From Longimicrobium sp. (GTDB lineage: Bacteria; Gemmatimonadota; Gemmatimonadetes; Longimicrobiales; Longimicrobiaceae): 46,031 nucleotides of DNA. The translations under genes were made by a program, and so were the position numbers. Shown one piece after another: positions 4,890 to 29,756 of the stretch (positions are counted from its first letter, which is position 1; each line of letters opens with the position of its first letter). The stretch lies in the NCBI GenBank assembly GCA_036387335.1, contig DASVTZ010000048.1:1-46031 (forward strand), in the 5' to 3' direction. Below the pieces are notes generated by a model. The model saw only the letters and a list, made by a program, of their open reading frames with translations. It was not told where the DNA came from and ran no database searches.

Positions 4890-4913
4890 AAAAACCGGCC
4901 GGAAGCCGCCGGC
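4890..4913 (-). terminator. Rho-independent terminator after the leader-peptide genes
   Basis: On the minus strand a GCCGG/CCGGC stem with a 6-base loop is followed by CGG and five T residues. It lies about 30 bases past the stop codon at 4946, so it would end the transcript of the two small precursor genes. Confidence 0.65.
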
Positions 4914-4945
4914 GTGCCGTCGCACGCCCGCGGACCCGTTCAAGC

Positions 4946-5146: not shown

Positions 5147-5172
5147 GGCGCTTCCTCTTGGAGGAGGGTGGA

Positions 5173-5469: not shown

Positions 5470-5602
5470 GATGACACTCACTGCAAGGGGTGAGGAGCCA
5501 GGAACCCACGCGAACAACGTGCAATACACATGCCCGATACAGGCGCAAAACACCTACGTTGGAGGGCCTAACACGAGCTTAATTCGCTCTCCTCGGCACG
5601 TT

Positions 5603-6700: not shown

Positions 6701-6765
6701 CGCGCTCCCGTGGCGTGTGCCCGCCCGTCCCGAGCCCTTTCCGACACCTCCCGGAGACCCGCCCC

Positions 6766-8106
6766 GTGACCCCAGCAGCGCTCGCCGCCGACCTGCGGCG
6801 CATCGTCCGCGGCACCGTGACCGACGCCGGGGAGGAGCTGGAAGCCCGCTCCTCCGACTACGGCCGCGTGGTCCGGCGCCGTGCCGCCGTCATCGTGCGT
6901 CCCACCGACTCCGGGGATGTCGCGAGCGTGGTGCGTTTCGCCGCGCGGCACGGCGTGGCCGTGACGACACAGGCCGCGGGGCACACGCAGGCGGGGCAGT
7001 CGCTTTCCGACGGCGGCGTGCTGCTGGACATGCACGGCTTCGGCGCGGTGGAGGAGGTGGACCCCGCGCGCGCACTGGCGACGGTGGGCGCGGGGGTCGT
7101 GTGGCGCGACCTGGTGGACCGGACGCTGGATCACGGCCTCGTCCCGCCCGTGCTGACCAACAACCTCTTCACCACCGTGGGCGGCACCGCCGCGGTGGGC
7201 GGCGTGGGCTACTCGTCGTTCCGCCACGGGGTGCAGCTGGACAACCACACCGCCCTGGAGGTGGTCACCGGCACGGGCGACGTCGTGTGGTGCTCGGCGG
7301 AGGAGAACCCCGACCTCTTTCTGCACGCGCTGGGCGGGCTGGGGCAGTTCGGCGTGGTCACCCGCGCGCGACACCGGCTGCGCCGCCCCGGCACGGAGGT
7401 GTCCAGCTCCACCCTCCTTTACGCCGACCCGCAGGAGCTGCTGGACGACGCGCGGCTGCTGGCCGGGGCCGGCGCGGCGGAGCACCTTCGCGGGTGGGCG
7501 GCGCACCGCGGCGGGCGCTGGATCTACGCCCTGTCGCTGGACTGCGAGGATGCATCCGCCCCGCTGCCGCACGGGCTCCGCTTCGTGCGCCGCGGCGGGG
7601 AGCGCCGCCAGCCCTACCGCGACTTCGTGCTGGCGAACTCCACGCTCGGGCGGCCCGGCTGGAGCCGCGACCGCGCCACCGTAGCGCCCGGGGTGGACGT
7701 GATCCTTCCGCGCGAGGCGGGGGGCGCGTTCATCGCCGAGGTGCTGGAGTGGTTTCCGCCCGGCCTGCGCGCCGCCTCCACCATCCTGATGCTCCTGTTG
7801 GACCGGGCGTCGCTCACGCGCCCCATGTTCGTGACGCCGGACGCGGAGTCGCTGGTCCTCTTCACCATCGAGCCGGAGGCGGGCGCCGCCGAAAGCGACG
7901 CGGTGATCGGACTGCTGGAGCGGATCGACGCGCGCGGCCGCGAGCTGGGCGGCAAGCGCTACGTGCCGGGGTGGCTGCGCTACGGGCCACGGGAGTGGCG
8001 CGAGCATTTTGGCAGCCGCTGGCCGCAAGTGGTCCGCATGAAGGAGCGCTTCGACCCGGCGCGCGTCCTCGTCTCCGGCGGCGTACACTTCGCGGACGGC
8101 GGATGA
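6766..8106 (+). CDS. FAD-linked oxidase resembling cytokinin dehydrogenase
   Basis: The 446-residue protein has a PCMH-type FAD domain. The covalent-flavin motif is AAGHTQAGQ (His73), followed by GGVLLDMHGF. Later stretches SSFRHGVQLDN, EVVTGTGDVVWCS and GGLGQFGVVTRAR closely parallel plant and bacterial cytokinin dehydrogenases; the C-terminus ends with RFDPARVLVSGGV. Known family chemistry is FAD-dependent oxidation of a C-N bond. The real substrate here is unknown, and a tailoring role for a nearby natural product is possible. I chose the GTG at 6766 (GGAG 9 bases upstream) over the ORF start at 6715, which begins with a Pro-rich stretch. Confidence 0.8.
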   Translation: MTPAALAADLRRIVRGTVTDAGEELEARSSDYGRVVRRRAAVIVRPTDSGDVASVVRFAARHGVAVTTQAAGHTQAGQSLSDGGVLLDMHGFGAVEEVDPARALATVGAGVVWRDLVDRTLDHGLVPPVLTNNLFTTVGGTAAVGGVGYSSFRHGVQLDNHTALEVVTGTGDVVWCSAEENPDLFLHALGGLGQFGVVTRARHRLRRPGTEVSSSTLLYADPQELLDDARLLAGAGAAEHLRGWAAHRGGRWIYALSLDCEDASAPLPHGLRFVRRGGERRQPYRDFVLANSTLGRPGWSRDRATVAPGVDVILPREAGGAFIAEVLEWFPPGLRAASTILMLLLDRASLTRPMFVTPDAESLVLFTIEPEAGAAESDAVIGLLERIDARGRELGGKRYVPGWLRYGPREWREHFGSRWPQVVRMKERFDPARVLVSGGVHFADGG

Positions 8107-15137: not shown

Positions 15138-15191
15138 CTGGCCTTTGTGGTGCGTGGTGCGGGGGGCCCTCACCCCCGCTCGTTCCTCGCT

Positions 15192-15240: not shown

Positions 15241-17442
15241 TTACTCCATCGCGATCAGCTGGCTGTAGGCGCCGCCGCGAGCCTTGAGCTCGTCGTGGGT
15301 GCCGCGCTCCACGATGCGGCCGCGGTCCAGGACGACGATCTCGTCGCAGTCGCGGATGGTGCTCAGGCGGTGCGCCACGATCAGGCACATGCAGCCGCGG
15401 CGGCGCAGGTTGTCGTCGATCTCCTTTTCGGTGATCGGGTCCAGGGCGCTCGTGGCTTCGTCCAGCACCAGCAGGGTGGGGTTGTTCACCAGGGCGCGCG
15501 CGATCTCCAGCCGCTGGCGCTGCCCGCCGCTGAAGTTGCGGCCGCCCTCCTCCACCTTCCCCGAATAGCCGCCGGTGCGCGCGCTGATCTCGTCGTGGAT
15601 GCACGCGTCGCGGGCCGCCTGCACCAGGTCCGCGTCGGAGACGGTGTCGTCCCACATCGTCAGGTTCTCGCGGATCGTTCCCTCGAAGAGGAAGATGTCC
15701 TGGTCCACCACCGCCAGGCTGCTGATGAGGGTGCGGCGCGCGTGCCCGGCGCGCGGGAGCCCGTCCAGCAGCACCTGCCCGGCCCACGGGTCGTAGAGGC
15801 CGCTCACCACCCGCGCCACGGTGGACTTGCCGCTCCCCGAGCCCCCCACCAGCGCCACCCGGCTCCCGGGCTTGAGGGTGAGGTTGAAGTCCTGGATGAG
15901 CGCGGGCTCCAGCCGGCTGTAGCCAAAGGACATCCGCTGGATCTCCAGGTGCCCGTCGAGCTTGGTGCGGTGCGCCTCCTCGTCGGGCGCCTCGTGGGTG
16001 TAGCGCACCTCGGCGCGCAGCACGTCGTCCAGCCGGTTCAGATCGCTCCCCACCTCGTGCAGGGTGCTCCCCAGCGCCACCAGCCGGTTGACCGGGGTGA
16101 GGAAGGCGAGCATCAGCGCCTGGAACGCCACCAGCATCCCCATGCTCATCTCGCCGTCCATCACCCGCTGCCCGCCCAGCCCCAGCACCAGCGTGCTGCT
16201 GAGCGCCATCAGCAGGGTGGGGAGCACGGAAAGGAGCTGCGTCTGCCCGCCCAGCTCCTGCTTGGCGTTCACCACCTTGGCGTACTGCCCCGCCCAGCGC
16301 GCGAAGAAGTCGCTCTCCGAGCCGGTGCTCTTGAGCGTTTCGATGTTCATCAGCCCGCCCATGGTGGTGCCCACGGAGCGGCCGTAGTCCTTGGCCAGGC
16401 GGTAGCTGAGGTCGGTGCGCCTGCGCGACACCGCCACGAGCGCCACGATGTTGAGGGCGGCGGTCGCCACCACCACGGCCGTCATCCACAGGTCGTAGCC
16501 GGACATGAGCACGGCGTAGAACGCCACCACCACGATGCTGAGCAGCGTCGTCGCCAGCTCGCCCGAAAGGACGTGCGCGGCGCGGTCGTTGAGCCCCACG
16601 CGCGACGCGATCTCGCCCGGAAAGCGCTGCGAGAGGAACTGCATGGGAAGGTGCAGGACGTGCCAGAAGAAGCGGGTGGAGGCCGTGAGCGACAGCTTCG
16701 TCTCCAGCCGCAGCAGGTAGAGCTGCTGCAGCCAGGTGAGCGCGGCCATGAAGAGCGCGGTGACCCCCATGGCCGCCAGGAGCGGCGTCACCCAGTCGCT
16801 CAGCCCGCGGATGAGCACGGCGTCCACGTACACGCGTGAGAAGGTGGGCACCACCAGCCCCGGCACCACCAGCGCCAGCCCCGCGAGCACGATGAAGGCG
16901 AGCGCGGCGTGCGAGCGCGGCAGGCGGCGACGCAGCGCGCTCACCAGCGAGCGCCCTTCGCCGCCGGGCTTGAACTCGGGCCCCGGCTCCATGACCAGCG
17001 CCACGCCCGTGAACGACTCGTCCAGCTCCTTGTCCGACACGACGCGAGGGCCGTACGCCGGGTCGTTGAGGAAGACCCGCCCCCTGGACCCGAACCCCTC
17101 CAGCACCAGGAAGTGGTTGAAGTTCCAGTGCACGATCATGGGGAGCGGCATGCGGCGCAGCGCCGCGGGCTCCAGCTTGTACCCCTTGGAGGTGAGCCCG
17201 AAGGTGCGGGCCGCGCGCACGATGTTGCTGGCCTTGCTCCCGTCGCGCGAGATGCCGCAGGCGATGCGCAGCTCCTCCAGCGGCACGTAGCGCCCATGGT
17301 GGGCCAGGATCATGGCGAGCGAGGCGCCCCCGCACTCCACCGCCTCCATCTGGAGCACGGTGGGCACGCGGCGGCGCCGGGGCGAGGGTGGGGCGTCCTC
17401 GCCGCCGGCGCGGCCCCGCGCGCGTTCCAGGAGCGCGGTCAT
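15241..17442 (-). CDS. NHLM-type bacteriocin ABC transporter with C39 leader peptidase
   Basis: The 733-residue protein has an N-terminal C39 peptidase with Gln31, Cys37 (QMEAVECGGAS), His110 (HWNFNHFLVLEG) and Asp127 (FLNDPAYG), the full catalytic set. It then has a six-helix exporter domain and a nucleotide-binding domain with GGSGSGKST, FSGGQRQRLEIARAL, LLVLDEATSALD and IVAHRLST. Its job is to cut the leader after a double glycine and export the core. The precursors in this window (4946-5469 and 23413-23989) all carry GG, so they are the likely substrates. The ATG at 17442 overlaps the HlyD stop as ATGA, so translation is coupled. Confidence 0.93.
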   Translation of the reverse strand: MTALLERARGRAGGEDAPPSPRRRRVPTVLQMEAVECGGASLAMILAHHGRYVPLEELRIACGISRDGSKASNIVRAARTFGLTSKGYKLEPAALRRMPLPMIVHWNFNHFLVLEGFGSRGRVFLNDPAYGPRVVSDKELDESFTGVALVMEPGPEFKPGGEGRSLVSALRRRLPRSHAALAFIVLAGLALVVPGLVVPTFSRVYVDAVLIRGLSDWVTPLLAAMGVTALFMAALTWLQQLYLLRLETKLSLTASTRFFWHVLHLPMQFLSQRFPGEIASRVGLNDRAAHVLSGELATTLLSIVVVAFYAVLMSGYDLWMTAVVVATAALNIVALVAVSRRRTDLSYRLAKDYGRSVGTTMGGLMNIETLKSTGSESDFFARWAGQYAKVVNAKQELGGQTQLLSVLPTLLMALSSTLVLGLGGQRVMDGEMSMGMLVAFQALMLAFLTPVNRLVALGSTLHEVGSDLNRLDDVLRAEVRYTHEAPDEEAHRTKLDGHLEIQRMSFGYSRLEPALIQDFNLTLKPGSRVALVGGSGSGKSTVARVVSGLYDPWAGQVLLDGLPRAGHARRTLISSLAVVDQDIFLFEGTIRENLTMWDDTVSDADLVQAARDACIHDEISARTGGYSGKVEEGGRNFSGGQRQRLEIARALVNNPTLLVLDEATSALDPITEKEIDDNLRRRGCMCLIVAHRLSTIRDCDEIVVLDRGRIVERGTHDELKARGGAYSQLIAME

Positions 17443-18743
17443 CGCCCGGCTCGCGACGCGAGGTCGGCCGGCCCGGCGGCGCCGATCCCCAGGAAGCGGC
17501 GGAGCTGCGGCACCACCAGCAGGATGGGCCGGCGGCGCTCCACCACGATGTTGGCGTCGGCCAGCGTGCCGCTCTGGATGCGGATGGGCGGGCCGCTGGA
17601 CGACGACCAGCGGTACTGCGTGGCGCTGGCCGCGTCGGGAATCAGGTCGGCGTGCACCTCGTAGGGCGCGTCCTGCCCTGAGAGCGCCGTCACCAGTTGA
17701 GCGTTCTTGAGCACGCGCTGCATCCCCTGCGGCGTGCTGGGGAAGTCGGAGGCGTACGTCACCCGACCCAGCAGGTAGCCGTACTCCTCCTTCTTGACCG
17801 TGGAGGGGACGATCTGGATCTCCATCCCCGGCTTGATCTTCTTGCCGTGCAGCGAGGGGACGTAGACCACCGCCTCCAGGTTCTTGACCGCCTTGCCGGC
17901 CAGGCTCACCGTCATGATGGGCTCGCCGCGGTCCACCAGACCGCCCTGCTCGGCCATCACCTCCAGCACGCGCCCCGTGTACGGCGAGGTCACCTCGGAC
18001 TGCAGGCGCAGGTCGTTCTCCAGCTTTTCCAGGTTGCGCTCGGCCTCGTGCAGCTGGTTGCGGCTGGCGAGGAGCTCCTGCTCCTTCTGGTTGCCGGCCT
18101 GCAGGCTCTCCACGTTCAGCTGCACCAGCTGGCTGCGGTCCGCGCGGATGCGCTCCTTCACCGTCTCGTGCTCCTGGCGGGAGCGGAGGAGGTTCTGCCG
18201 CGTCATCAGCCCCTGCTGCACCAGCCGCTCCTCGTTGGCGATGCGCTCGGTGAGCGCCGCCAGCGTGGCCTCGGAGGCCTGGATCGACTGTTCCAGGTTG
18301 GTGCGGCGCTGCGCCTGCGAGGCGGCCTGCAGCTGCCGGTCGCGGTCCACGAACGACCCCACGCGGCGGTACTGCCCCTCCAGCTCGGCCACGCGCGAGC
18401 GGGCGTTCCTCACCTGCTCGCTCAGCTCCGGCTGCGACAGGCGGGCGATGACCTGCCCCTCGCGGATGGTGTCGCCCACGCGGATGGAGAGGTCGGATAC
18501 GAGGCCGCCGCTCTGGGCGACCACCTCGTACACGCCGCCGCTGCGCAGCAGGATGGCCTGCGCCGCGATGCGCTCGGGGATGCTCCCCACCACGCTCCAC
18601 GCGATGGCGACCACCAGGAGCGCCGCCAGCCCCGTGAGCGCCAGCCACCCCTTGGGCGTGGCCACCTGCATGAGCTCGTCGAGCTGGTCGGGCGAACCCA
18701 GGCGGTCGAGCGCGACCTTTCGGAAGATGTCCGGCTTGGCCAT
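17439..18743 (-). CDS. HlyD-family membrane fusion protein of NHLM-type secretion system
   Basis: The 434-residue protein has one N-terminal transmembrane helix (WLALTGLAALLVVAIAWSVV, about residues 33-52). It has a split biotinyl-lipoyl domain (GGVYEVVAQSGGLVSDLSIRVG and SPYTGRVLEVMAEQGGLVD) around a long coiled coil rich in Glu, Gln and Arg (about residues 105-235). It links the inner-membrane ABC pair to the TolC channel. The start is MAKPDIF at 18743; no strong ribosome site is seen. It sits 34 bases after the TolC gene. Confidence 0.9.
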   Translation of the reverse strand: MAKPDIFRKVALDRLGSPDQLDELMQVATPKGWLALTGLAALLVVAIAWSVVGSIPERIAAQAILLRSGGVYEVVAQSGGLVSDLSIRVGDTIREGQVIARLSQPELSEQVRNARSRVAELEGQYRRVGSFVDRDRQLQAASQAQRRTNLEQSIQASEATLAALTERIANEERLVQQGLMTRQNLLRSRQEHETVKERIRADRSQLVQLNVESLQAGNQKEQELLASRNQLHEAERNLEKLENDLRLQSEVTSPYTGRVLEVMAEQGGLVDRGEPIMTVSLAGKAVKNLEAVVYVPSLHGKKIKPGMEIQIVPSTVKKEEYGYLLGRVTYASDFPSTPQGMQRVLKNAQLVTALSGQDAPYEVHADLIPDAASATQYRWSSSSGPPIRIQSGTLADANIVVERRRPILLVVPQLRRFLGIGAAGPADLASRAGR

Positions 18744-18777
18744 AACACCGTTCGTGGGCTGATGGTGAGCGGGTGCG

Positions 18778-20334
18778 CTACTGCCGCGGAGCGGCGGGCG
18801 CCCACGACGTGATGCGTTCCGGGTCCGCGGCGGCCTCTCCGTCGCCGTCGCCCAGCAGGGCGCCGGTGTGGAAGCGCAGCTGGGCGACCGCCACCGCGTA
18901 GCGCCGCCGGGTGCCGATCCAGCCGAGGAGCGCGCCGGTGCGCCCGTCCTCCACCTGGATGACCTCCAGGAGGGTGGAGGTGCCCAGCTTGAACTTCTCG
19001 TTCTCGCTCTCCACCGAAAGCCGGTGCAGCCGCACCGCCTCGCGCGAGATCTCCAGCTCCTCAACGGCGCGGCGCAGCGATTCGGCCGCGAGCGCCGCGT
19101 CCAGCGCGATCTGCCGCGTGAGCTCGTCCAGGAAGAGGGATGCGCGCCGGTCCGCGGCGGTGCTCCGCATCACCTGCCCCGCCGCCACGTTGCGCGTCAG
19201 CGGCAGCGCGTACGACAGCGCCACCTGCGCGTTGAAGCCGTGCGTGCTGGCGTAGAAGGGCGAGAAGAGCCGCTCGAACTGCGCCCCGCTCTCCAGCCCG
19301 GTGTAGCCCACGCCCACGCTCAGGTCCACGCGCGGCGCCGCCTCGCTGCGGCTTCCGCGCAACGACGCGCGCGCGGCGGCCACGCGGCTGCGCGCAGCAT
19401 CCAGGTCCGCGCGCCGCTGCAGCGCCTCGGCCACGCTCGCCTCCTCGGCGGGGACGGCGGCGGCACCGCCCGGCGGCGCGATGGGGAGCGAGTCGGCCGG
19501 GAGCGGCAGCGTGGCGAAGCTCTCCGCGCCGAGCCCCACCGCCCGCACCAGCGCCTGCCGCGCGGACGACACCGACCCCTCGCCGCCCAGCCGCGCGGCG
19601 CGCTTGGAGGCCAGGCTGGCCTGCACGGCGAGCCGGTCCGACGCGGGGCGGGCGTCGGCCGCGATCAGCGTCTCCGTCTGCCCGACCAGCGTGCGGGCCC
19701 GCTCTTCGGACTCACGCAGCACGTCCAGCGACTGGAGGGCGGCCACGTAGCCCCAGTACGCCGTGACCGCGTCCAGCACGCGCAGCGCCTGCAGCTGGCG
19801 AAGCTCGCCGCGGCTGGCGTCGAGCGAGGCGGAGGCGGCGCGCTCGCCGGCGCGCAGCCCTCCCCCGCCCCGCCCCCGCCCCAGCGGCACCAGCAGGTCC
19901 AGCCGCGCCACCCCGGTGTTGCGCGTGGGCGCCCCCTCCGCGTCGATCCCCTGGCGGTTGTAGGAGAGGCTGGGCGAGAGCACGAGCCCCGGCCGCAGGC
20001 GCCAGTCCACCCCCGCCGTGTAGTCCAGCCCGCGGCTCTGTGTGGTGGAAGGCCCCGTCTCCGCGTTGCCGAGCGAGGGGTTCCCCGCGCGCTCGCTGGT
20101 GACGCTGGCGAGCGCCTGCGGGTCGAAAGCGCCCCTGGCCTGGCGGAGCGTGCCCTCCTGCGCGTGCACGTCCCACTGCCCCAGCGCGATGTCCGCGTTG
20201 CGGGCCAGGGTGGCGCGGACCACTTCGGCCAGGGTGAGGCGCGGGCCGGGCGGGGCCTGCTGCGCGCGCAGGGGCGCGCTCCCGGCGCCCAGGGCCAGGA
20301 GGAGGATGCCGAACCGGCTCGCCGCGTTGCTCAT
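18778..20334 (-). CDS. TolC-family outer membrane efflux protein
   Basis: The 518-residue protein has a signal peptide (FGILLLALGAGSAPLRAQ) followed by the duplicated TolC/OEP pattern: LTLAEVVRATLARNADIALGQ at the start of half 1, long Ala/Arg/Glu-rich helices, and FKLGTSTLLEVIQVEDGRTGA near the end of half 2. It would form the outer-membrane duct for the HlyD/ABC exporter transcribed just after it. The ATG at 20334 is chosen because the signal peptide starts there and GCAGG is upstream; in-frame extension to 20376 adds an unlikely hydrophilic stretch. Confidence 0.88.
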   Translation of the reverse strand: MSNAASRFGILLLALGAGSAPLRAQQAPPGPRLTLAEVVRATLARNADIALGQWDVHAQEGTLRQARGAFDPQALASVTSERAGNPSLGNAETGPSTTQSRGLDYTAGVDWRLRPGLVLSPSLSYNRQGIDAEGAPTRNTGVARLDLLVPLGRGRGGGGLRAGERAASASLDASRGELRQLQALRVLDAVTAYWGYVAALQSLDVLRESEERARTLVGQTETLIAADARPASDRLAVQASLASKRAARLGGEGSVSSARQALVRAVGLGAESFATLPLPADSLPIAPPGGAAAVPAEEASVAEALQRRADLDAARSRVAAARASLRGSRSEAAPRVDLSVGVGYTGLESGAQFERLFSPFYASTHGFNAQVALSYALPLTRNVAAGQVMRSTAADRRASLFLDELTRQIALDAALAAESLRRAVEELEISREAVRLHRLSVESENEKFKLGTSTLLEVIQVEDGRTGALLGWIGTRRRYAVAVAQLRFHTGALLGDGDGEAAADPERITSWAPAAPRQ

Positions 20335-20516
20335 CTCGCACCTGCCCGGAGCTGGGGTATCTTCGTCGGCGGGCATCCCCGTCCGATTCGCCGCATCATC
20401 GTTCACCCTCGCGGAGCGGGCGAAGGCCACTGAGCCGCGCGAGATCCGCCCTCGGGTGCATCCCTCGACCGCCTTTCCGTCGTCCCGACGCGCCACTTCG
20501 TGGCGGCCGCGCCGCC

Positions 20517-21062
20517 TCACGCGAGCGGAGCCAGCGCCGGCCGTACGCGCGGGGCGAGCTGGTGCCAGGCCAGCGGGAGCCACGCGGTGAACGTCTCCGG
20601 GTAGTCGCGGAGGGCGGCTTCCAGGGCGTCCACCGGGCACCACCGCCAGGCGCCCACCTCGGAGGGGTCGGGAAGCGGCACGCCGCTCCAGACGCCGGAG
20701 AATACGTGGTCGAGCTCGTGCTCCACGAGGCCGTTGCCCAGCTCGGCGCGGTAGGTGAAGTGCCCGGCGCCGGCCAGCGCGCAGTCGAAGCCCATCTCCT
20801 CGCGCAGCCTGCGGTGCGCCGCATCCTCCACCGCCTCGCCGGGGCGGGGATGGCTGCAGCAGGTGTTCGACCAGAGGCCGCCCGAGTGGTACTTGCCGTC
20901 CGCGCGCCGCTGCAGGAGGAGCGAGCCCGCCGCGTCGAAGACGAACACGGAGAAGGCGCGGTGAAGGAGCCCCTCCTGGTGCGCCCGCAGCTTTCCCGCG
21001 GTGCCCACCGGGGCATCGTGCGCGTCCACCAGCACCACCTCGCCGTCCAGGTCGCCGTGCAT
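20517..21062 (-). CDS. idi: Isopentenyl-diphosphate delta-isomerase, type I
   Basis: The 181-residue Nudix protein has the family landmarks: HRAFSVFVFD, LLLQRRADGKYHSGGLWSNTCCSHP (active-site Cys region), PGEAVEDAAHRRLREEMGF (Nudix-type helix), and HELDHVFSG. It converts IPP to DMAPP. The ATG lies one base past the stop of the isoprenoid-synthase-like gene (TGACATG), so the two are translated together. The pairing suggests DMAPP is supplied to the neighbour's prenyl chemistry. Confidence 0.92.
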   Translation of the reverse strand: MHGDLDGEVVLVDAHDAPVGTAGKLRAHQEGLLHRAFSVFVFDAAGSLLLQRRADGKYHSGGLWSNTCCSHPRPGEAVEDAAHRRLREEMGFDCALAGAGHFTYRAELGNGLVEHELDHVFSGVWSGVPLPDPSEVGAWRWCPVDALEAALRDYPETFTAWLPLAWHQLAPRVRPALAPLA

Positions 21063-21063
21063 G

Positions 21064-23283
21064 TCAGACGGCCACGGCGAGCGGCGCCTGGGCGGCCTGG
21101 CGCGCGCGATTGCGCACGCCCACCGCCGCGGCCTCGGTGCGCGCGCGCTCCATGTAGCCCCGGAAGACGGCCAGCCACTCCCGCCAGTCGTCCAGCGGCA
21201 GGTGCGCCACGAGGGCATCGGCCGCGTCCAGGTGCGCGATGGAGACGTCCAGCACCTTCTCCGCCTCGCCGTCGCAGTAGAGGGCGCGGGCGAACGCGGA
21301 GGGCTCCTCCGCCTCGCGCAGCTCAGGCCGGGCGGAGAGGACGTGCCCCACCACCAGCGAGGGGCCGCGCTCGCGCAGGTCCTTGCGCCAGTCCTTGAGG
21401 TCGTCCCAGTAGTACGAGGCCATGTCGAAGTGCTCGATCGACTTCGCCAGCGCCTCCACGTTGCTCTGGTCGCCCGCCAGCGCGGCCATCCCGTGCACCA
21501 CGATGGCGGCGAAGGGAAACTTCCCCTCGGCGATGCGCACGGACATCTCGCGGGTTACCAGTGAGCGGTCCTCGCCGCCGGTGCGCAGCCTGCGCTCCAG
21601 CCCGCAGGCGCGGGTGTACAGGGCAAAGGTCTCGCGGAAGCGGTCCCAGAAGGGCGAGTCCGCGGGAAAGAGCCCCTGGAAGAGGCGGTACGCCTCGAAC
21701 TGCATGGCCACGGCGCGCAGGTAGAGCTGGCCGTGGTCGTAGTTCTTGTGGCCGTCCACGATCTTGTCGGCCATGAAGGCGGACTCGAAGTAGACGCGGC
21801 ACGCCAGCGCGAAGCGGCTCACCGCCTCCTCGGGCACGCTCGGAAAGACCGGGTGGAGGATGAAGGGATAGGCCTGGTACAGCACTCCCTCGTTCCCCTC
21901 GATCCAGAGGAGGATGTCGTCGGGCCAGTGCCGCTGCAGCTCCAGCAGGAGCGGCTCGGCGGCGTTCCGCTTCGCGCGCAGACGGGCGACAGGGGTCATG
22001 GCTGGCTCCTTCCGGGTACGTGTGGGTGGAAGCGTCGCCGCCCTGCGCGGCCCCGCGGACCTTGGTTCCGTCTGGCGGACCGAGGCCGGCACGGGGCGCG
22101 CGGCGTCCGCGCGCTCCACCGGCCCCCGCTCCCGCCCCAGCCTTTCCAGCAGCCCCGCCGCCGCGCCGAAGCCGTCCCTCGCGCCGAACGCCGCACGCGC
22201 GGCGCGGGCACCCCGGCGCAGCGGCTCGCTCGTCATGGCTGCGCCGATCGCCCGCCGCAGCCCCTGGCCGTCCACCTCCGCGGGGACCCCCGCGCCGCAG
22301 CCGGCCCTCTCCGCCCAGTGGGTGAGGGTGACGGACTCGCTGCTCACCGGCACCAGCAGGCTGGGCACTCCGTGGGCGGCGGCGCCCAGCACGGCGGTGG
22401 TGGTGGATCCGCACACCACCGCCGCGGCGCGGGGGAGCACCAGCCCCTGCGGCACGTGCGGCTCGGCGATGAAGTTGGGCGGCAGCGGCCCGGCGGGTAC
22501 GTCCATCCGCGCCGTGGAGGCCACCACCTGCACCGGCCCGCAGGCGAGCGCGTCCACCAGCCGGGGCCAGAAGCCGGGCCCGCCGAAGGAGCGCCCCGCC
22601 TGCGCGTAGACCAGCGGCGCGTCCGGCGCGGCGAAGCGGGCGCGCAGGGCGGCCCACTCGGCGGCTTCGTCGCGCGGCGGCTCCCACAGGCAGGCGCCCG
22701 CCGCGTGCACCCGCGCGGGGAAGGCGGCGAGCTCCGGCTCCAGCCGCGGCACCGTGCGCAGGAGGAAGAGGTCCCCCAGCAGCGGGTGGTCTTCCGGGCC
22801 CCACTCGCCGGGGGCGAGGCGGCAGAGCGCCCGCACCTCGTTGAGCAGGCGGAGGTTGTCCACCAGGTGGCCGTGCCGGCGCGACTCCACCTCGCGCGGG
22901 GCGGCCGCTTCGCCGCGGCGCGCGGCGGGCCACAGGTACGACGCCGTCCCCATCACGGCCAGCGGCAACCCGCTCCGCTCGCGCGCCACCAGCGCGGACT
23001 GGCAGAGCTGGTGCGTCACCAGTACGTCGGGCCGAAAGCGGCGGGCCGCCTCCTCCACCTGCTTCACTCCGAGGACGGCGGCGGGGGCGAGCCCCCACAC
23101 GCGGATGTCGAAGCACCGCTCGTCGTCGCCGTGCTGCGCCAGGCCCGCCTCGTCCAGCAGCGGCCGCGCGGAGGGGCCGGTGACGAAGGCGGCCTCGTGC
23201 CCCCGGCGCCGAAGCTCCAGCGCCATCCCCGCCATGGGGAAGAGGAAGCCCGGGGTGGTGAACGAGCAGAACAGGTAGCGCAC
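21064..23283 (-). CDS. Glycosyltransferase fused in frame to class I isoprenoid-synthase-like domain
   Basis: A single 739-residue open frame. Residues 1-~395 are a UGT/MGT-type glycosyltransferase: MRYLFCSFTTPGFLFPM, FRPDVLVTHQ, PHVPQGLVLPRAAAVVCG and GVPSLLVPVSSE. After a Pro/Arg-rich linker, residues 429-739 form an all-helical isoprenoid-synthase-like domain with DKIVD (weak first Asp motif) and YYWDDLKDWRKD, a good DDxxDxxxD second motif. An internal ATG at 21999 is preceded by GGAAGGAG at 6 bases, so the second domain may also be made alone (311 aa). The start is GTG 23283 with GGGAG 5 bases upstream. It follows the precursor genes and precedes idi; it may glycosylate or prenylate a product. 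Confidence 0.8.
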   Translation of the reverse strand: MRYLFCSFTTPGFLFPMAGMALELRRRGHEAAFVTGPSARPLLDEAGLAQHGDDERCFDIRVWGLAPAAVLGVKQVEEAARRFRPDVLVTHQLCQSALVARERSGLPLAVMGTASYLWPAARRGEAAAPREVESRRHGHLVDNLRLLNEVRALCRLAPGEWGPEDHPLLGDLFLLRTVPRLEPELAAFPARVHAAGACLWEPPRDEAAEWAALRARFAAPDAPLVYAQAGRSFGGPGFWPRLVDALACGPVQVVASTARMDVPAGPLPPNFIAEPHVPQGLVLPRAAAVVCGSTTTAVLGAAAHGVPSLLVPVSSESVTLTHWAERAGCGAGVPAEVDGQGLRRAIGAAMTSEPLRRGARAARAAFGARDGFGAAAGLLERLGRERGPVERADAARPVPASVRQTEPRSAGPRRAATLPPTRTRKEPAMTPVARLRAKRNAAEPLLLELQRHWPDDILLWIEGNEGVLYQAYPFILHPVFPSVPEEAVSRFALACRVYFESAFMADKIVDGHKNYDHGQLYLRAVAMQFEAYRLFQGLFPADSPFWDRFRETFALYTRACGLERRLRTGGEDRSLVTREMSVRIAEGKFPFAAIVVHGMAALAGDQSNVEALAKSIEHFDMASYYWDDLKDWRKDLRERGPSLVVGHVLSARPELREAEEPSAFARALYCDGEAEKVLDVSIAHLDAADALVAHLPLDDWREWLAVFRGYMERARTEAAAVGVRNRARQAAQAPLAVAV
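22006..22013 (-). promoter_or_regulatory. Internal ribosome binding site within the fusion gene
   Basis: On the minus strand this reads GGAAGGAG, 6 bases before an in-frame ATG (21999) that begins the isoprenoid-synthase-like domain. It is one of the best ribosome sites in the window, which argues for independent translation of the C-terminal part. Confidence 0.7.
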
Positions 23284-23412: not shown

Positions 23413-23583
23413 CTACTGGATCGACTGCTGCTCTTCGAACGACTTGTTCGTGCCGCAGGTCATGTCCCAGCACCCGCCGGCGGCTTCCTCCAGGCTCTGG
23501 TCGTCGAGCTCTTCCACGTCGAGGTCGTCGGCGTTGAGGCTCACCAGCTCGTCTTCGGGCTTGCCCTGATTCGCTTCGCTCAT
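23413..23583 (-). CDS. RiPP precursor peptide 1, GG leader and Cys core
   Basis: The 56-residue peptide has a 37-residue acidic leader beginning MSEANQGKPEDELVS, followed by ADDLDVEELDDQSLEEAAGG. The core after GG is CWDMTCGTNKSFEEQQSIQ. Its first 26 codons are identical in sequence to precursor 2 and the ribosome site GGAGGTGGATCC is shared, so the two arose by recent duplication. Two Cys at core positions 1 and 6 are the obvious targets for a radical SAM/SPASM enzyme such as the one at 24168-25676, and the GG fits the C39 transporter. The type of cross-link cannot be read from the sequence. Confidence 0.85.
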   Translation of the reverse strand: MSEANQGKPEDELVSLNADDLDVEELDDQSLEEAAGGCWDMTCGTNKSFEEQQSIQ

Positions 23584-23661
23584 GGATCCACCTCCGAGAG
23601 GGTTGAAGGGGCGCTCGCCGGAGCCATGCGCCCCGTCGCGTAGACCGCCCCAGCACTGCTG

Positions 23662-23808
23662 CTACCCGAAAGCGGAGCCGCTGCCGCAGTCACATTCGCG
23701 GCACCCGCCGGCGGGGGCGCCGGCGCGGGGGCTGATCAGCTCGTTTTCCGGCCCTTCCCCGCCGCCCCCGTGGGAGCGGCGGGCCCAGCACCGCCGGGGC
23801 CCTGTCAC
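23662..23808 (-). CDS. Diverged third RiPP precursor, possibly degenerate
   Basis: A reading frame of about 48 residues from GTG 23808 ends in GPENELISPRAGAPAGG, then CRECDCGSGSAFG and a stop. PENELIS matches PEDELVS of precursors 1 and 2, and the core keeps Cys1, Cys6, the following Gly-Ser and Phe12; it has an extra Cys at position 4. About 19 residues of the acidic leader are missing, and there is no Met start or ribosome site. It may be translated by re-initiation, since the GTG lies 13 bases past the stop of precursor 2, or it may be a decaying copy. Confidence 0.5.
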   Translation of the reverse strand: MTGPRRCWARRSHGGGGEGPENELISPRAGAPAGGCRECDCGSGSAFG

Positions 23809-23821
23809 GGACGCCAGCGAC

Positions 23822-23989
23822 TCAGACCGCCCGCTGCTCCTCGAACGAGGAGTTGCTGCCGCAGGTCATGTCCCAGCATCCGCCGGCCGCTTCCTCCAGG
23901 TCCTGATCGTTGAGCTCTTCCACGTCGAGGTCGTCGGCGTTGAGGCTCACCAGCTCGTCTTCGGGCTTGCCCTGATTCGCTTCGCTCAT
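23822..23989 (-). CDS. RiPP precursor peptide 2, GG leader and Cys core
   Basis: The 55-residue peptide has the leader MSEANQGKPEDELVS, then ADDLDVEELNDQDLEEAAGG, and the core CWDMTCGSNSSFEEQRAV. GAGGTGGATCC precedes the ATG by a few bases. It is the first of the three tandem copies and lies 178 bases downstream of the radical SAM/SPASM stop. The core differs from precursor 1 only at the T/S and K/S positions and in the tail after FEEQ. The invariant CWDMTCG suggests these residues are the modified part and the tail is variable. Confidence 0.85.
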   Translation of the reverse strand: MSEANQGKPEDELVSLNADDLDVEELNDQDLEEAAGGCWDMTCGSNSSFEEQRAV

Positions 23990-24167: not shown

Positions 24168-25676
24168 CTACAGGTCGCAGACGCGCGTGTCCTCCACGAT
24201 GGCGGCGCCGGCCACGTGGTCCAGGTACGCCTGCGCCACCGAGTGGCGGAAGCGGTCGCCGTAGCCGTCGCAGTAGTTGGAGTAGAACTTCCCGTTCTGC
24301 CCCTCGGCCAGCACCGCGCACCCCCCGCCGCAGTGCAGGGCGTAGCGGCACTTGCGGCAGGTGGGGTTGCTGGCGGGGGTGCGGCTGCGCCACATCTTGG
24401 TGAGCCCCGCGTTCATCTCCACCCCGCCGTCGTCCAGCACGCGGCCGATGCGCACCTTCTCGTCGCCCGTGCGCTCCCAGCACGCGTAGATGTCCCCGAA
24501 CTGGTCGAAGATGTACATCCCCGTGTGCGCGCCGCAGAAGCTGCTCTTGAGGTGCGGAAGTCCGTGCGCGCGGTCTTCGAACAGGCGGCGGGCGCGGGCC
24601 TGCAGCCCGTCGTCAGGCCGGCCGATCACGCGCATGTCCGGGAAGGCGATGCGCAGGTCGTCGATGGTCTCGTCCAGCTCCCAGGTGGTGGCGAAGCCGG
24701 TCTGGAACTTGGCGTTGGCGTTGCCGTGCACCACGCGCGCGGTGTACACCGAGAAGCCGCGCCGCCGGTCCCACCCGCGCGCCACGATCTCCTCGGCCAG
24801 CCGCGGCACGTGCAGGATGTTGGTCTTGTCCAGGTTCATGCGCACGGAGACGATGGCGCCCCGGTCCAGGCACAGGTCGATGTTGCGCGCGATCTGGTCG
24901 AACGAGCCGCTGCCGTCCGCGTGGATGCGGCGCTTGTTGTGCTCCTCCGGCGGGCCGTCGAGCGTGATCTGCACCGAGGCGATCCCCTCCGGCCCCAGCA
25001 GGTCCTCGTAGGCCTCCAGCTCGGTGGCGTTGCTCACCGCCCAGAAGCGCACCGGGCCCATGTCGCGCGCGCCCTTGATGATGTACTCGATGATCGGCCG
25101 GTTGACGGCCAGAAAGGGCTCGCCGCCGTAGAAGCCGATGTTGCGCGTGAACTCCACGCCCTCTTCCCAGCCGTGCTCCGCCTCCAGGGTGGGCATGGCG
25201 GCGAAGATGCGGTCCACCATCTCCGGGGTGATGACGTTGAGGAGGCGCGCGTACTGCGGGTCCGTGCGCATGTGGTCCTGGAAGCAGTACGGGCAGCGCA
25301 GGTTGCAGTTGTAGGTGGGCATGAAGATGTACGACGTGCCCTGCTGCAGGGCGCGCTGGTGCCGCTTCTTGGCCGTGCGCGCGAAGAAGCCCTCCTCTTC
25401 CTCGAAGTCCATCACCGTCATGTAGCCGCGCTGCTTCAGCAGCTCCACGGTGCGGTCCGACGGCGCGTACGTGCTCACCGGGCGCTCCGCCGCCGGGTCC
25501 GACTTCCACTCGCCGTGCAGCGGCTTGTGCGCGGGCCCCCGCTCCTGCGAGCGGAGGTAGTCGCCCACCGTGCGCGAGACCTTGTCGTAGGCGCCCGTGT
25601 AGCCATGCACCAGGAGCATTTCGCCGGCGTCTTCCGGGATGTCCACGTAGATGGTGTAGCTGCTCGTCCGAAGCAT
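24168..25676 (-). CDS. Radical SAM/SPASM peptide maturase
   Basis: The 502-residue protein has a PqqD-like winged-helix N-terminal region (about 5-95, YTIYVDIPEDAGEMLLVHG). The radical SAM cluster motif is C124-x3-C128-x2-C131 (TYNCNLRCPYCF), followed by FYGGEPFL and QITLDGPPEEHNKRR. A C-terminal SPASM domain has Cys in SSFCGAH, ACWERTG, NPTCRKCRYALHCGGGCAV and YCDGYG, enough for two extra iron-sulfur clusters. Such enzymes form thioether, C-C or related cross-links on RiPP cores. The three precursors with Cys1/Cys6 lie directly downstream, so they are the likely substrates. ATG 25676 has GGAGA 6 bases upstream; the longer start at 25745 is less likely. Confidence 0.92.
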   Translation of the reverse strand: MLRTSSYTIYVDIPEDAGEMLLVHGYTGAYDKVSRTVGDYLRSQERGPAHKPLHGEWKSDPAAERPVSTYAPSDRTVELLKQRGYMTVMDFEEEEGFFARTAKKRHQRALQQGTSYIFMPTYNCNLRCPYCFQDHMRTDPQYARLLNVITPEMVDRIFAAMPTLEAEHGWEEGVEFTRNIGFYGGEPFLAVNRPIIEYIIKGARDMGPVRFWAVSNATELEAYEDLLGPEGIASVQITLDGPPEEHNKRRIHADGSGSFDQIARNIDLCLDRGAIVSVRMNLDKTNILHVPRLAEEIVARGWDRRRGFSVYTARVVHGNANAKFQTGFATTWELDETIDDLRIAFPDMRVIGRPDDGLQARARRLFEDRAHGLPHLKSSFCGAHTGMYIFDQFGDIYACWERTGDEKVRIGRVLDDGGVEMNAGLTKMWRSRTPASNPTCRKCRYALHCGGGCAVLAEGQNGKFYSNYCDGYGDRFRHSVAQAYLDHVAGAAIVEDTRVCDL

Positions 25677-25751: not shown

Positions 25752-26969
25752 TCAGCTCACCAGCAGCGGCGCCTCGGCGCGCGGAGCGGCGGGGGCGGGT
25801 CCGGCCACCACCACCAGCCCCTGCCCCACCAGCTTGCCCAGCAGGCTGCGTACTGTGTCGCGGTCCACCTGGCCGGCCGCTTCCGCCACCACCCGGGCGA
25901 TGCTCACCGGCTGGCCCTGGAGGAGCGGCTCCACGATGGGCCGCGCGGAGGGGGCGAGCCGCAGCCGCTTGCCCGCGGCCACCAGTTGCACCCGGCCGTC
26001 GGGGGTCTCGGTGAGGGTGGCGTCGCGCGCGGCGGGGAGCTGCACCAGGAAGTCGTCGGTGGGGGGGAGCCCCTCCGCCATGGCGCTCCACGGGAGCCCG
26101 GCCGTCTGCTGCGGCCGCGCGCGGCTCTCCAGGTGCGCGTAGAAGCGGTCCACCAGGTCGGGAGTCAGCTGCGCCAGCAGGTCCTGGCGCAGCAGCTCCA
26201 CGTGCTCCGCGCGCGCCGCCGCCGTGGCGAAGCGCGGCAGGTCCTTGCGCGTGACGGCCGACGCGGCGCAGAGCTGGTCCACCATCCAGAGGAGGAGGTG
26301 GCGCCCGTTGTGGACGTCCACGCCGAAGGTGAGGTGCAGCGACGGCTCCTCCATGGGCACCGCCACGTGCCACCACCCGCGGGGGATGTACAGCAGCTCC
26401 CCCTCGCCCAGGATGCCGTCCCACACCACCTCTTCGGGCGGCGGGTACGACCCGTCCAGCGCGTGCGAGATGGGGTAGGGCCGGTTGTCGCCGTAGACGC
26501 GCCAGTGCTTGCGCCCCGCCACCTGTAGCACGAACACGTCGTGCTCGTCCCAGTGCAGGTCGAACCCCTTGGTGGAGCGCCACCCGGCGTACATGTTGAC
26601 GGTCACGGGCTCGCGGAAGGCGCGCGAGATGGCCTCGGCCAGCTCCCCGATGGGGGCGTACATCTGGTCGATGCGGTTGATGTTGAGCGTGGCCCCCTCG
26701 CGCAGGTGCCGCGTGAGCGCGGACGGCACCACCCGCGGAAAGGGCTGCTCCTGCACGTACGCCGTCCGCGCCACCGGCTTGCCGTCGGTCACCAGCCGCA
26801 GCCGCTGCGCGTCGAAGCTGTGCTCCGCCAGGATGCGGTTGAGCGCGTCCCACGGAAGGAGGTCGGCGAACTTCCCCGGCCAGCCCGGGACGTGCTCGAA
26901 GCGCTTGCCCCAGGAATCGCGGATGAACTCGTCCACGGTGTGGGGCGCGAAGAGGCGGTCGATCAGCAT
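25752..26969 (-). CDS. JmjC/cupin-type Fe(II) oxygenase with C-terminal winged helix
   Basis: The 405-residue protein resembles bacterial ribosomal-oxygenase-like cupins (YcfD/RoxA): WGKRFEHVPG at the N-terminus, NMYAGWRSTKGFDLHWDEHDVF with the HxD iron ligands His139 and Asp141, and YIPRGWWHVA with the distal His201. The last ~110 residues look like the dimerising winged-helix tail. The expected reaction is 2-oxoglutarate-dependent hydroxylation, here most likely of a peptide. The start overlaps the stop of the GT9-like gene (ATGCTGA), so the two are translationally coupled. It lies 75 bases before the radical SAM gene, consistent with a shared peptide substrate. Confidence 0.85.
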   Translation of the reverse strand: MLIDRLFAPHTVDEFIRDSWGKRFEHVPGWPGKFADLLPWDALNRILAEHSFDAQRLRLVTDGKPVARTAYVQEQPFPRVVPSALTRHLREGATLNINRIDQMYAPIGELAEAISRAFREPVTVNMYAGWRSTKGFDLHWDEHDVFVLQVAGRKHWRVYGDNRPYPISHALDGSYPPPEEVVWDGILGEGELLYIPRGWWHVAVPMEEPSLHLTFGVDVHNGRHLLLWMVDQLCAASAVTRKDLPRFATAAARAEHVELLRQDLLAQLTPDLVDRFYAHLESRARPQQTAGLPWSAMAEGLPPTDDFLVQLPAARDATLTETPDGRVQLVAAGKRLRLAPSARPIVEPLLQGQPVSIARVVAEAAGQVDRDTVRSLLGKLVGQGLVVVAGPAPAAPRAEAPLLVS

Positions 26970-28441
26970 GCGATGGTTCCAGGTAGCGGGGGCTCTGCGC
27001 GACGGGGGCGTACGGTGGGGCGCCGGCGCCGCGGCGGCCCCGTGTCGCCCTCGCCGCGCGCGGCGCGCCGCCGGGCCACCATCGCCTCCACCGCGGCCAC
27101 CACGCGCCGCGCGTCCAGGCGGTCCCACAGCGCCTCGGCGAAGGCCACGTGGGCCGGGTGGTCGCTCACGCCCCGCCCCAGCAGCGGGTTGTCCTCAGGC
27201 TGAAGCGCGATCCCCTCCACGTACGGGTAGTACGCGGTGCGGCTCTCGGGCGTCATGGAGGTGAAGAGGACCACGGCCGGCACGTCGAAGGCGTCGGCCA
27301 GGTGGTAGGCGCACGTGTCGGTGCTCACCACCATGTCCGCCCGCGCCACCAGGTGCGCGAAGTGGTCGAAGGTGCGCGAGTGCGCCGACCAGTCCAGGAA
27401 GCGGGGATGGTCCACCGCCAGCGGCACCGCGCTCGCCACGCGCCACCCGGTGAGCTCCAGCAGCTCGTGGACGAAGCGGGCGGCCCGCTCCGCCGGAAAG
27501 GTGCGGATGGGGGTGGAGCTCTGCGGGTGGAAGAGGAGCACCGGCGCGCCGCCGCCGTCCGCCGCGAGCCCGTTCGCCAGCTCCGCCGCGACGGCCGGCG
27601 ACGGGGGGAACGACATCCGCTTGCGCGACGCGGGGACGGCGCGGGGGTCGAGCCCGCAGGCGTCCATGCAGATGTCTACCCAGTGCGCATCGGCCGTTAC
27701 GCGCTCCCCCGTGAGATCCAGGTACGCGTCGTAGCCCGTGAGGAGCTGCACGGGTGCGGGAAGAAAGTGGATTCCGTCGATCAGGCCGGAGCGGCGGAAG
27801 AGCGCTTCCGCCTCGGCGTTACATCGGTGCTGCACCAGGTCAAGCGTGACCTCGTCGAAGCGCGCTTCCAGGGTGGCGCGCAGCTCGCGGAGGGCGCAAA
27901 GGCCCAGCAGTGTGTCGCCGAAGGCCAGGTGGAGGATGTTGACGACGGCCACCCGCACCGCGCGCCGCCCCTGGAGCAGCTCCAGCGCGCTCGCCAGCGG
28001 CGCGAACTCGCCGGTGGCTCCCAGGCGTCCCACGCGTGCCGGCATCCCGCGCTGCGCCAGCAGCTTGGCCTGCGCCCCGGCGGAGAGCACCTTGAGCACG
28101 TCCGGGCATCCGCGCGCCCGCGCGCGCCTGGCGTACTCGTTGAGCGCGCCGAAGAAGACGGGCGAGTTGGCCAGGTGCACGTCGCGCCCGGTGAGGCGCC
28201 CGTCGCGCGGGGCCTCCAGGCGGAGGGCGAGCTCGCCGGGGGCGGCGGGGGGCGCCTCTCCCGCGGGGTGGATGGAGTACACGGAGACGTCCGACCCGCG
28301 GCCGTAGTAGCGCACCCGCACGTCCAGCGGCTCGGTGACGTAGAAGAGCGTCGCCGAACGGGCGTCCGGGGGGAGGACGCCCGCGGAACGCCTCGCACCC
28401 CGTTCGAGCGTGTCTGCTGTGCCGGCGGGGCGAGCGTTCAT
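26963..28441 (-). CDS. GT9/heptosyltransferase-like glycosyltransferase
   Basis: This 492-residue protein has a C-terminal ~280-residue half that matches the GT9 heptosyltransferase fold: VAVVNILHLAFGDTLLGLCALRELR, GYDAYLDLTGE, LLFHPQSSTPIRTFPAERAARFV, and ADMVVSTDTCAYHLADAFDVPAVVLF. The N-terminal ~200 residues are unusual for the family and have no clear match; they might bind the acceptor. I infer transfer of a sugar to the peptide or a lipid acceptor. The ATG at 28441 (MNARPAG) follows AGGAAGCAGG; a longer frame to 28636 would run through the promoter. Its end overlaps the cupin start by 7 bases. Confidence 0.75.
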   Translation of the reverse strand: MNARPAGTADTLERGARRSAGVLPPDARSATLFYVTEPLDVRVRYYGRGSDVSVYSIHPAGEAPPAAPGELALRLEAPRDGRLTGRDVHLANSPVFFGALNEYARRARARGCPDVLKVLSAGAQAKLLAQRGMPARVGRLGATGEFAPLASALELLQGRRAVRVAVVNILHLAFGDTLLGLCALRELRATLEARFDEVTLDLVQHRCNAEAEALFRRSGLIDGIHFLPAPVQLLTGYDAYLDLTGERVTADAHWVDICMDACGLDPRAVPASRKRMSFPPSPAVAAELANGLAADGGGAPVLLFHPQSSTPIRTFPAERAARFVHELLELTGWRVASAVPLAVDHPRFLDWSAHSRTFDHFAHLVARADMVVSTDTCAYHLADAFDVPAVVLFTSMTPESRTAYYPYVEGIALQPEDNPLLGRGVSDHPAHVAFAEALWDRLDARRVVAAVEAMVARRRAARGEGDTGPPRRRRPTVRPRRAEPPLPGTIAC

Positions 28442-28556
28442 CCTGCTTCCTGGCGGTGCGGAGACCGGGACGGGGGACCGAAGATCGGTCGTGAAGGGCG
28501 TGCCCGGCGGGGGTGCGCCCCAGGCACGCGGCCCTGGCACGACATCCCTACTGAGC

Positions 28557-28620
28557 AAGATAGATCCGAAAAAACGTTCTTCAAGATACCGTTCGAACGG
28601 AAACGGGCGCCGAACAAACG
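28557..28620 (-). promoter_or_regulatory. Promoter with bipartite operator upstream of GT9-cupin-radical SAM genes
   Basis: On the minus strand the order is CGTTTGTTCGGCGCCC (28605-28620), 4 bases, the 12-bp palindrome CCGTTCGAACGG (28589-28600), 4 bases, a -35-like TTGAAG (28579-28584), 16 bases, and a -10-like TATCTT (28557-28562). The same bipartite element is upstream of the nucleotidyltransferase gene, with identical spacing. The position upstream of -35 suggests an activator site. Confidence 0.7.
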
Positions 28621-28652
28621 TCGCGCTCCGGGCCATGCGGGCGGCGGCGCGT

Positions 28653-29756
28653 CTACTCCGCGCCCCTTCCCAGCATGCCCGTGACTCCCCCCAGCCAGGG
28701 GTTGATGACCCGCCGCCTGCGCGCGCGCTCGTCGGTGTCGCGGCGGGGCGCGCGCAACACGTACTCGCGGATAACGGGAAGGATGCGCTCGTCGGCAGGC
28801 CTCCACTCCACCTCCGGCAGCAGCCCCGCCGGGATGGGCGCGTGAAGGATCTCGCGCGTCAGCCGCAGCGTCACCGCCACCAGCTTGGCCGCGTTCCAGG
28901 CGCGCGCCGTCGCCTCCACCCGCTCCCAGTCCACCCGCGGCTCCGCGCGCGCGGCCCAGGCGATGTCGCACAGCTTCTGGACGGTGATGTTGAAGCCGTG
29001 GTGAAAGGAGGCGTGCAGGCACAGGTGGAGGAGGAGGTCTTCGGGCGAGAACGCCAGCAGCTCCGCGTCGTGGAAGCCGGCCGGCCGCACCCGCGCCCAC
29101 AGGTCGTCCATGCGCAGGGTGAAGGGGCTCGCCGGCGGTCCGCCCCCGCGCGGGTGCCCCACCGCGTCGATCGACCAGTGCAGCTCCACCTCGAGCTCCC
29201 CCTCCTTCTGCATGGGAACGAGGTGGTGGTTGCACGCGTACACCGGCTCCAGATGGGGGTGGTTCTCCGGACGGTAGCCCAGCTCCAGCAGGACGCGGTA
29301 CGCGCGCTCGATGTCCGGGCGCGGCACCAGCAGGTCCACGTCCTCCATGCAGCGGAAGGCGGGGTCGCCGTACACGCCGCGCGCCAGGTACGCCCCCTTG
29401 AGCACCACCGCGGGGATTCCCGCCCCGCCCAGCTCGCGGGCCACTTCGGCCAGCCCCCGGTACATCCGCGCGTTCGAGCTCGAGGTGGCCGCGTACGCCT
29501 CCTCCATCGCCCGGGCGGCGGCGGGGGGCACCGCCAGCCCCGGCTCGTCGGCGAGCCGCGCGCCCACCAGCGGGGCCACTTCGTGACGGAGCGCCCGCGC
29601 CACCAGCACCTCCCATTCGGCGGCGGTCAGCGCGGCGAGCCGCTCCACGAGGGGCTCACCGGCTCGCAGCGACAGGCAGGCGGCCAGCAGGTCGCGGGGA
29701 GTGCCGCCCGCCACGTCCGCGTCCACCGGCTCGGCCAGCAACGGGATCTGCGCCAT
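28653..29756 (-). CDS. Nucleotidyltransferase-family protein (NTP_transf_5 type)
   Basis: The 367-residue protein has the nucleotidyltransferase core IPAVVLKGAYLARGVYGDP (Lys120) followed by the metal-binding CMEDVDLLVPRPD (Asp139, Asp141), then VELHWSIDA and LLHLCLHASFHHGF. Members of this family often sit in RiPP and peptide gene clusters, where their substrate is mostly unknown. It begins its own transcript at a promoter that shares an operator with the gene that follows it. AGAGG precedes the ATG by about 8 bases. It is probably an accessory enzyme that adenylylates a peptide or sugar; that is inference. Confidence 0.82.
   Translation of the reverse strand: MAQIPLLAEPVDADVAGGTPRDLLAACLSLRAGEPLVERLAALTAAEWEVLVARALRHEVAPLVGARLADEPGLAVPPAAARAMEEAYAATSSSNARMYRGLAEVARELGGAGIPAVVLKGAYLARGVYGDPAFRCMEDVDLLVPRPDIERAYRVLLELGYRPENHPHLEPVYACNHHLVPMQKEGELEVELHWSIDAVGHPRGGGPPASPFTLRMDDLWARVRPAGFHDAELLAFSPEDLLLHLCLHASFHHGFNITVQKLCDIAWAARAEPRVDWERVEATARAWNAAKLVAVTLRLTREILHAPIPAGLLPEVEWRPADERILPVIREYVLRAPRRDTDERARRRRVINPWLGGVTGMLGRGAE

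Follow-up and report, generated by a model that had tools for sequence, protein, structure and literature searches.

Isoprenoid RiPPs have been described (Hubrich et al. 2024, as cited in PMC13290415 and PMC12715784). The trans-IDS-like peptide prenyltransferases ComQ, PalQ and the P domain of ChrPC all act, so far, on tryptophan, and a conserved glutamine upstream of their second Asp-rich motif has been proposed to recognize this residue (PMC13290415). Radical SAM RiPPs are known as well, and the S-C-alpha bond between Cys31 and Gly34 of streptosactin provides a published precedent for an i,i+3 linkage (PMC8172795). Here we describe an operon that encodes a radical SAM/SPASM enzyme and a candidate peptide prenyltransferase on either side of a pair of short precursor peptides. 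Each kind of enzyme is known; their combination and the rule that we find in the cores look new. In the open literature that we searched, we found no described family with such a maturase, leader and C-x-x-[N/F/Y] core, and no description of a radical SAM enzyme paired with a prenyltransferase, of which prior notice is possible.

The window, by which we mean the whole stretch of 46,031 nucleotides at its full length, has every gene on the minus strand from position 29756 down to 12174. The gene order is NTP_transf_5 nucleotidyltransferase, GT9-like protein, JmjC cupin protein, radical SAM/SPASM enzyme, two precursors, MGT-type glycosyltransferase, prenyl-synthase-fold protein, IPP isomerase, TolC-type protein, HlyD-type protein, C39-ABC transporter and a further ABC transporter. 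The nucleotidyltransferase gene (28653..29756, minus strand; PF14907, 2.5e-59) is the probable operon start. A sequence-only reading had proposed a tandem RiPP precursor family accompanied by a radical SAM/SPASM gene and a C39 exporter, and this proposal is well supported for the precursor pair. It overlooked the genes of the prenyltransferase-like protein, the IPP isomerase, the two glycosyltransferases and the JmjC protein, and with these genes the product is probably a different one.

The two precursors, of 55 aa (23822..23989, minus strand; core CWDMTCGSNSSFEEQRAV) and 56 aa (23413..23583, minus strand; leader MSEANQ...EEAAGG, core CWDMTCGTNKSFEEQQSIQ), share 87% protein identity, and both carry a CWDMTCG[ST]N core behind the GG leader. 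Codons 1-26 are the same in both, and the ribosome site and start read GAGGTGG-ATCC-ATG in each, which bears out the near-identical leaders and common ribosome site noticed before. Among the next 29 codons, 11 differ at both silent and replacing sites, and the replacements in the core include S/T, S/K and R/Q. Identical codons followed by these differences indicate that the pair is no product of chance but a tandem duplication whose core is diverging. The reported distance of 178 bases also holds, as counted from the stop of the radical SAM gene at 24168 to the start of the first precursor at 23989. A conserved leader, a variable core, an adjacent maturase and a cleavage site, the features that mark a RiPP precursor, are thus all present in the window.

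Three small minus-strand frames had been proposed in this region. The 56-aa and 55-aa ORFs stand, whereas the middle frame (23662..23808, minus strand, opening with GTG) has neither an ATG nor a ribosome site and is missing most of the leader, including the LNADDLDVEEL...LEE part. It gives no match to the leader profile, and its DNA aligns with the precursors in short blocks only, with scores of 36 and 35 against shuffled-null maxima of 37 and 31. The middle frame is no working copy and is best read as a decayed one. The same precursor core was not found in a second genome among viral contigs, 21 genomes of the family and 394 other genomes of the phylum; the viral contigs gave no relative of the precursors, and the 21 family genomes gave only weak leader-like matches beyond the two precursors of the window.

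The radical SAM/SPASM peptide maturase (24168..25676, minus strand, 502 aa) contains the CxxxCxxC motif (C124, C128 and C131) and seven SPASM cysteines (C381, C399, C440, C443, C449, C453 and C469), and it scores 48.1 against the SPASM model TIGR04085, above the cut-off of 27. With both cysteine sets present and a precursor adjacent, it belongs to the radical SAM/SPASM RiPP maturases. The NCBIfam equivalog models all score below their cut-offs on this enzyme, with CefB, TIGR04463 and PapB the nearest, and five of its relatives are likewise uncovered by NCBIfam models. The best NCBIfam similarity is to the CefA/CefB Cys-every-fifth system (NF038108/NF038107; 2.5e-34), which many relatives resemble in having a cysteine at every fourth or fifth residue; however, the score of 118.8 bits is far from the cut-off of 600, and the window precursor has no match to CefA. 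The ranthipeptides share with this locus a radical SAM/SPASM maturase and a Cys-based core motif, but the score against PapB (NF047865) is 110.6 bits for the window enzyme and 119-134 for relatives, with a cut-off of 340. The substrate spacing of PapB is C-x3-D, in contrast to C-x-x-N/F/Y in the radical SAM loci compared here. Unlike in streptosactin, the acceptor in these loci would be Asn, Phe or Tyr, and the leader, maturase and partner genes also differ.

By scanning species genomes with the window enzyme and with its 66% paralogue, which the same genome encodes at the end of contig C126, we collected 43 related radical SAM loci, mostly at 45-60% identity, and compared them with a quick tree. 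They are distributed over at least seven phyla, including Cyanobacteriota, Acidobacteriota, Myxococcota, Chloroflexota, Actinomycetota, Pseudomonadota and Vulcanimicrobiota. In the comparison of 43 full sequences, none has lost any of the three radical SAM or the seven SPASM cysteines. At E <= 1e-45, a search for the radical SAM enzyme in the phylum's 394 other genomes returned nothing besides the paralogue in the window's own genome.

The small ORFs that directly follow the radical SAM gene on its 3' side have in common the leader L-N-x-D-D-L-D-x-E-E-L-E-x-R-L-E-[LM]-A, and many cyanobacteria, Rheinheimera and the window have a GG leader instead. In the related loci, 29 of the 33 leader-profile matches (E <= 1e-3) share the strand of the radical SAM gene and fall no more than 2 kb beyond its 3' end, a figure that is partly circular because many seeds of the profile came from these loci, although L055, L054, L065, L040, L031 and L051 were not among the seeds. 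The sequence-only reading had named a lack of homologues beside radical SAM genes in other genomes as one refutation, and this check favours its proposal, since many genomes do have homologous leaders and Cys-rich cores beside homologous radical SAM genes. In three cyanobacteria (L038, L039 and L042), unlike in the other loci, a peptide lies just upstream of the radical SAM gene, and its long, Nif11-looking leader ends in AVAGGFYYGS...CSQW. Separately, several weak leader-like tandem ORFs were seen near other biosynthetic genes in genome G243 (L025, 8100-11230), upstream of a very large synthetase gene.

The cores of these peptides follow a spacing rule. In the clean test of 19 loci, with cores chosen by leader only, N, F, Y or H stands at position +3 after a cysteine at a frequency of 0.684, compared with 0.162 after shuffling (z = 13.6; reached in 0 of 3000 shuffles). 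A partly hand-picked set of 33 loci gives the same result at +3 and shows enrichment of Gly at +1 too. The offsets beside +3 are at or below chance. In the long cores of L048, L043 and L047, the C-x-x-[N/F] unit is repeated four to seven times. In the window cores, the second cysteine fits the rule (CGSN and CGTN), while the first one (CWDM) does not. The previously proposed core, C-x4-C-G-[ST]-[NG]-[SK]-[SA]-F, is accurate locally as far as C-x4-C-G-[ST], but what is conserved among the relatives is C-x-x-[N/F/Y]; the local pattern is a case of the broader C-(G)-x-[N/F/Y] rule.

The second modifying enzyme is encoded at 21064..21999 on the minus strand, with its own AAGGAG and ATG. A Pfam search of this protein gave no match. 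An AlphaFold2 model built on a 15-sequence alignment (pLDDT 88.4) predicts the fold of polyprenyl diphosphate synthases, with Z 25.7 and an rmsd of 2.4 over 273 residues to 4lob, and the Foldseek matches of the model include Ord1, a Trp prenyltransferase. The invariant Asp-rich motifs D78xxxD82 and D199D200xxD203 are kept. The predicted isoprenoid synthase fold, the two Asp-rich motifs and the position of the gene beside short precursors are shared with ComQ, ChrPC and PalQ, and the trans-prenyl-diphosphate-synthase-fold protein is therefore a candidate peptide prenyltransferase. The isopentenyl-diphosphate delta-isomerase (20517..21062, minus strand; NF002995, 175.6 bits against a cut-off of 127) begins with an ATG one base past the prenyltransferase stop, which ties the isoprenoid supply to the prenyltransferase.

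The window protein differs from ComQ, ChrPC and PalQ in several respects. The glutamine before the second Asp-rich motif is present in 14 of 14 relatives, whereas the window protein has Tyr196 in its place (ASYYWDD). A C-terminal squalene-hopene-cyclase-like half (SQHop_cyclase_C), which by published description is similar to the cyclase domain of ChrPC, is fused in 10 of 12 members and absent in the window, so that the window protein is no ChrPC-type fusion with a terpene cyclase. Moreover, a radical SAM/SPASM enzyme and a Cys motif accompany it. The fold and the Asp-rich motifs, and in the relatives also the glutamine and the fused cyclase, match published enzymes and support the assignment to this prenyltransferase family. 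Since the glutamine is proposed to hold the indole, its replacement by tyrosine makes the acceptor of the window prenyltransferase, and even its activity, uncertain.

Of the 43 radical SAM loci, 12 have a homologue of the prenyltransferase, mostly right after the precursors. In G224, G080 and Hymenobacter, relatives also lie beside leader-like peptides, with no radical SAM gene seen in the vicinity. The Myxococcota prenyltransferase loci that lack the radical SAM gene yielded no leader-like peptide. Trp is found in the core at 8 of 12 loci with a prenyltransferase and at 6 of 20 without, a weak association (p = 0.07). In Hymenobacter the core has Trp and no Cys. This core suggests that cysteine serves the radical SAM enzyme and tryptophan the prenyltransferase, a division that the weak association of Trp across loci leaves tentative.

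Some of these loci show further features. The peptide that neighbours the prenyltransferase-cyclase of genome G080 (L010, 9567-9851, minus strand) has an LEERIEF leader and, at its end, the PEP-CTERM-like sequence PEPATLVLAATGIGAVGLGSYLRRRAARRR, a possible hint that such a peptide is anchored at the surface. Ktedonosporobacter (L064, 12700-14910; L077) has a second prenyltransferase-cyclase copy with several stops and a frame break, which on its sequence looks like a pseudogene beside the intact copy at 4730-6802. In two genomes (L099 and L100), the cyclase half of the protein occurs alone.

The exporter genes had been recognized as a C39-ABC/HlyD/TolC set in the same orientation as the precursors; the set is real, co-directional and of the NHLM type. 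All three NHLM-specific subunits exceed their curated cut-offs: the HlyD-type adaptor (17439..19064; TIGR03794, 387.3 bits against 156.2), ABC1 with its C39 peptidase (15241..17403; TIGR03796, 1091.8 bits against 853.3; PF03412, 4.8e-34) and the ABC2 permease/ATPase (12174..15173; TIGR03797, 885.9 bits against 709.4), all on the minus strand. The TolC-type outer membrane protein (18778..20643, minus strand; PF02321, 5.1e-27; TIGR01844) precedes them. For the TolC-type and HlyD-type proteins, the coordinates are ORF limits and the starts are uncertain. Cleavage after GG and export by the C39-containing ABC1 are expected. The three subunits and the GG leader are thus those of an NHLM export system, but by the models scanned the cargo is neither of the Nif11 nor of the nitrile-hydratase type.

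The remaining genes point to further tailoring. The MGT-type glycosyltransferase (22000..23283, minus strand; TIGR01426, 9.4e-14, below cut-off) has homologues at 18 of the 43 related loci, and its reading frame runs into the prenyltransferase gene with no stop between. Upstream of the radical SAM gene lie a JmjC/cupin oxygenase-like protein (25752..26969, minus strand; PF08007, 4.6e-25, with a weak winged-helix-like C-terminal match) and a GT9 (heptosyltransferase)-like protein (26963..28636, minus strand; PF01075, 2.6e-07). On contig C126, a GT9-like gene likewise lies before the radical SAM paralogue. Neither the JmjC and GT9 genes nor the NTP_transf_5 gene recurs in the 43 related loci, so their roles are drawn from operon position. 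An Rfam scan of the window gave no match.

We regard it as likely that this is a RiPP operon whose product undergoes an i+3 cross-link of cysteine by the radical SAM enzyme, prenylation, probable glycosylation, cleavage after GG and export. This reading is based on the precursor pair with its ribosome sites and GG, the recurring loci of radical SAM gene and leader, the +3 rule and the SPASM cysteines kept throughout; it is further based on the recurrence of the prenyltransferase homologues, the prenyl-synthase fold, the adjoining isomerase and the NHLM subunits above their cut-offs. In the pathway that we infer, with its bond chemistry, acceptor residues, sugar and order of steps, the duplicated precursors would be bound via the conserved leader, possibly by the N-terminal region of the radical SAM enzyme. 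The radical SAM/SPASM enzyme would most likely form an S-C thioether between the Cys of CG[ST]N and the alpha or beta carbon of the Asn at i+3. With the IPP isomerase as its supplier, the prenyl-synthase-fold enzyme would most likely transfer an isoprenyl group onto the core, for which Trp is the leading acceptor candidate. One or two glycosyltransferases would probably add a sugar, and the JmjC oxygenase a hydroxyl. The C39 peptidase would then cut after GG, and the product would leave through HlyD and TolC. By analogy with RiPPs at large, its role may be guessed to be that of a secreted antimicrobial or signal.

The radical SAM enzyme might instead form other bonds, such as nested sactionines, ranthipeptide-type links from two cysteines to distant residues (e.g. 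Phe), or a C-C link at Trp, with C-x-x-N reflecting turn geometry only. The enzyme is near PapB, CefB and TIGR04463, whose recorded target patterns are of more than one kind, and the first cysteine of the window cores breaks the rule. We nevertheless consider such bonds unlikely, given how sharply +3 is preferred over neighbouring offsets and how often the C-x-x-[N/F] unit is repeated in long cores (L048, L043 and L047).

Doubt of another kind concerns the prenyl-synthase-fold protein and the IPP isomerase, which might make a free prenyl diphosphate or lipid and leave the peptide unmodified, as would suit a fold common to GGPP and polyprenyl synthases and the Tyr at the Trp-recognition position. 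This seems improbable, as relatives directly follow precursor genes in many phyla, also where the radical SAM gene is missing, and carry the Gln and cyclase fusion known from peptide prenyltransferases. That the peptide is a lanthipeptide, a Nif11 peptide or other known NHLM cargo, with the radical SAM gene incidental, is very improbable: the NHLM exporter and GG leader are common to those classes, but no lanthionine synthetase, YcaO or nitrile-hydratase leader was matched among the scanned genes and peptides, and the pairing of leader and radical SAM gene recurs across phyla.

Beyond the RiPP operon reading of the window, we propose tentatively, and with considerable doubt, that these loci represent a widespread undescribed RiPP family. 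Its members would carry radical SAM-made i-to-i+3 rings from Cys to Asn, Phe or Tyr, an isoprenoid on the same peptide, attached by a prenyl-synthase-fold enzyme either alone or together with a terpene cyclase, and then a sugar, making a radical-SAM/terpenoid/sugar hybrid; in the window, the change from Gln to Tyr suggests a switched prenyl acceptor. If this is true, radical SAM cross-linking and terpenoid attachment, which have been studied separately, would meet in a single family of ribosomal products that spans at least seven phyla. The search rule for such clusters would be C-G-x-[N/F/Y] behind an L-N-x-D-D-L-D-x-E-E-L leader, and the natural Gln-to-Tyr variant would be useful for probing how these prenyltransferases choose their target residue.

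The window's own genome contains a further set of precursors. At the end of contig C156 (L024, 1-5925) lie five precursors in tandem, with leaders of the type seen in the window and cores such as CGSN...CGTY, all of which also fit C-x-x-[N/F/Y]. C156 is perhaps a second cluster, served by the radical SAM paralogue on C126; a sequence overlap between the two contigs was sought and none was found, which leaves their link unproven. Downstream of the C156 precursors are a daptide-like intramembrane protease, below cut-off, and then an MGT glycosyltransferase.
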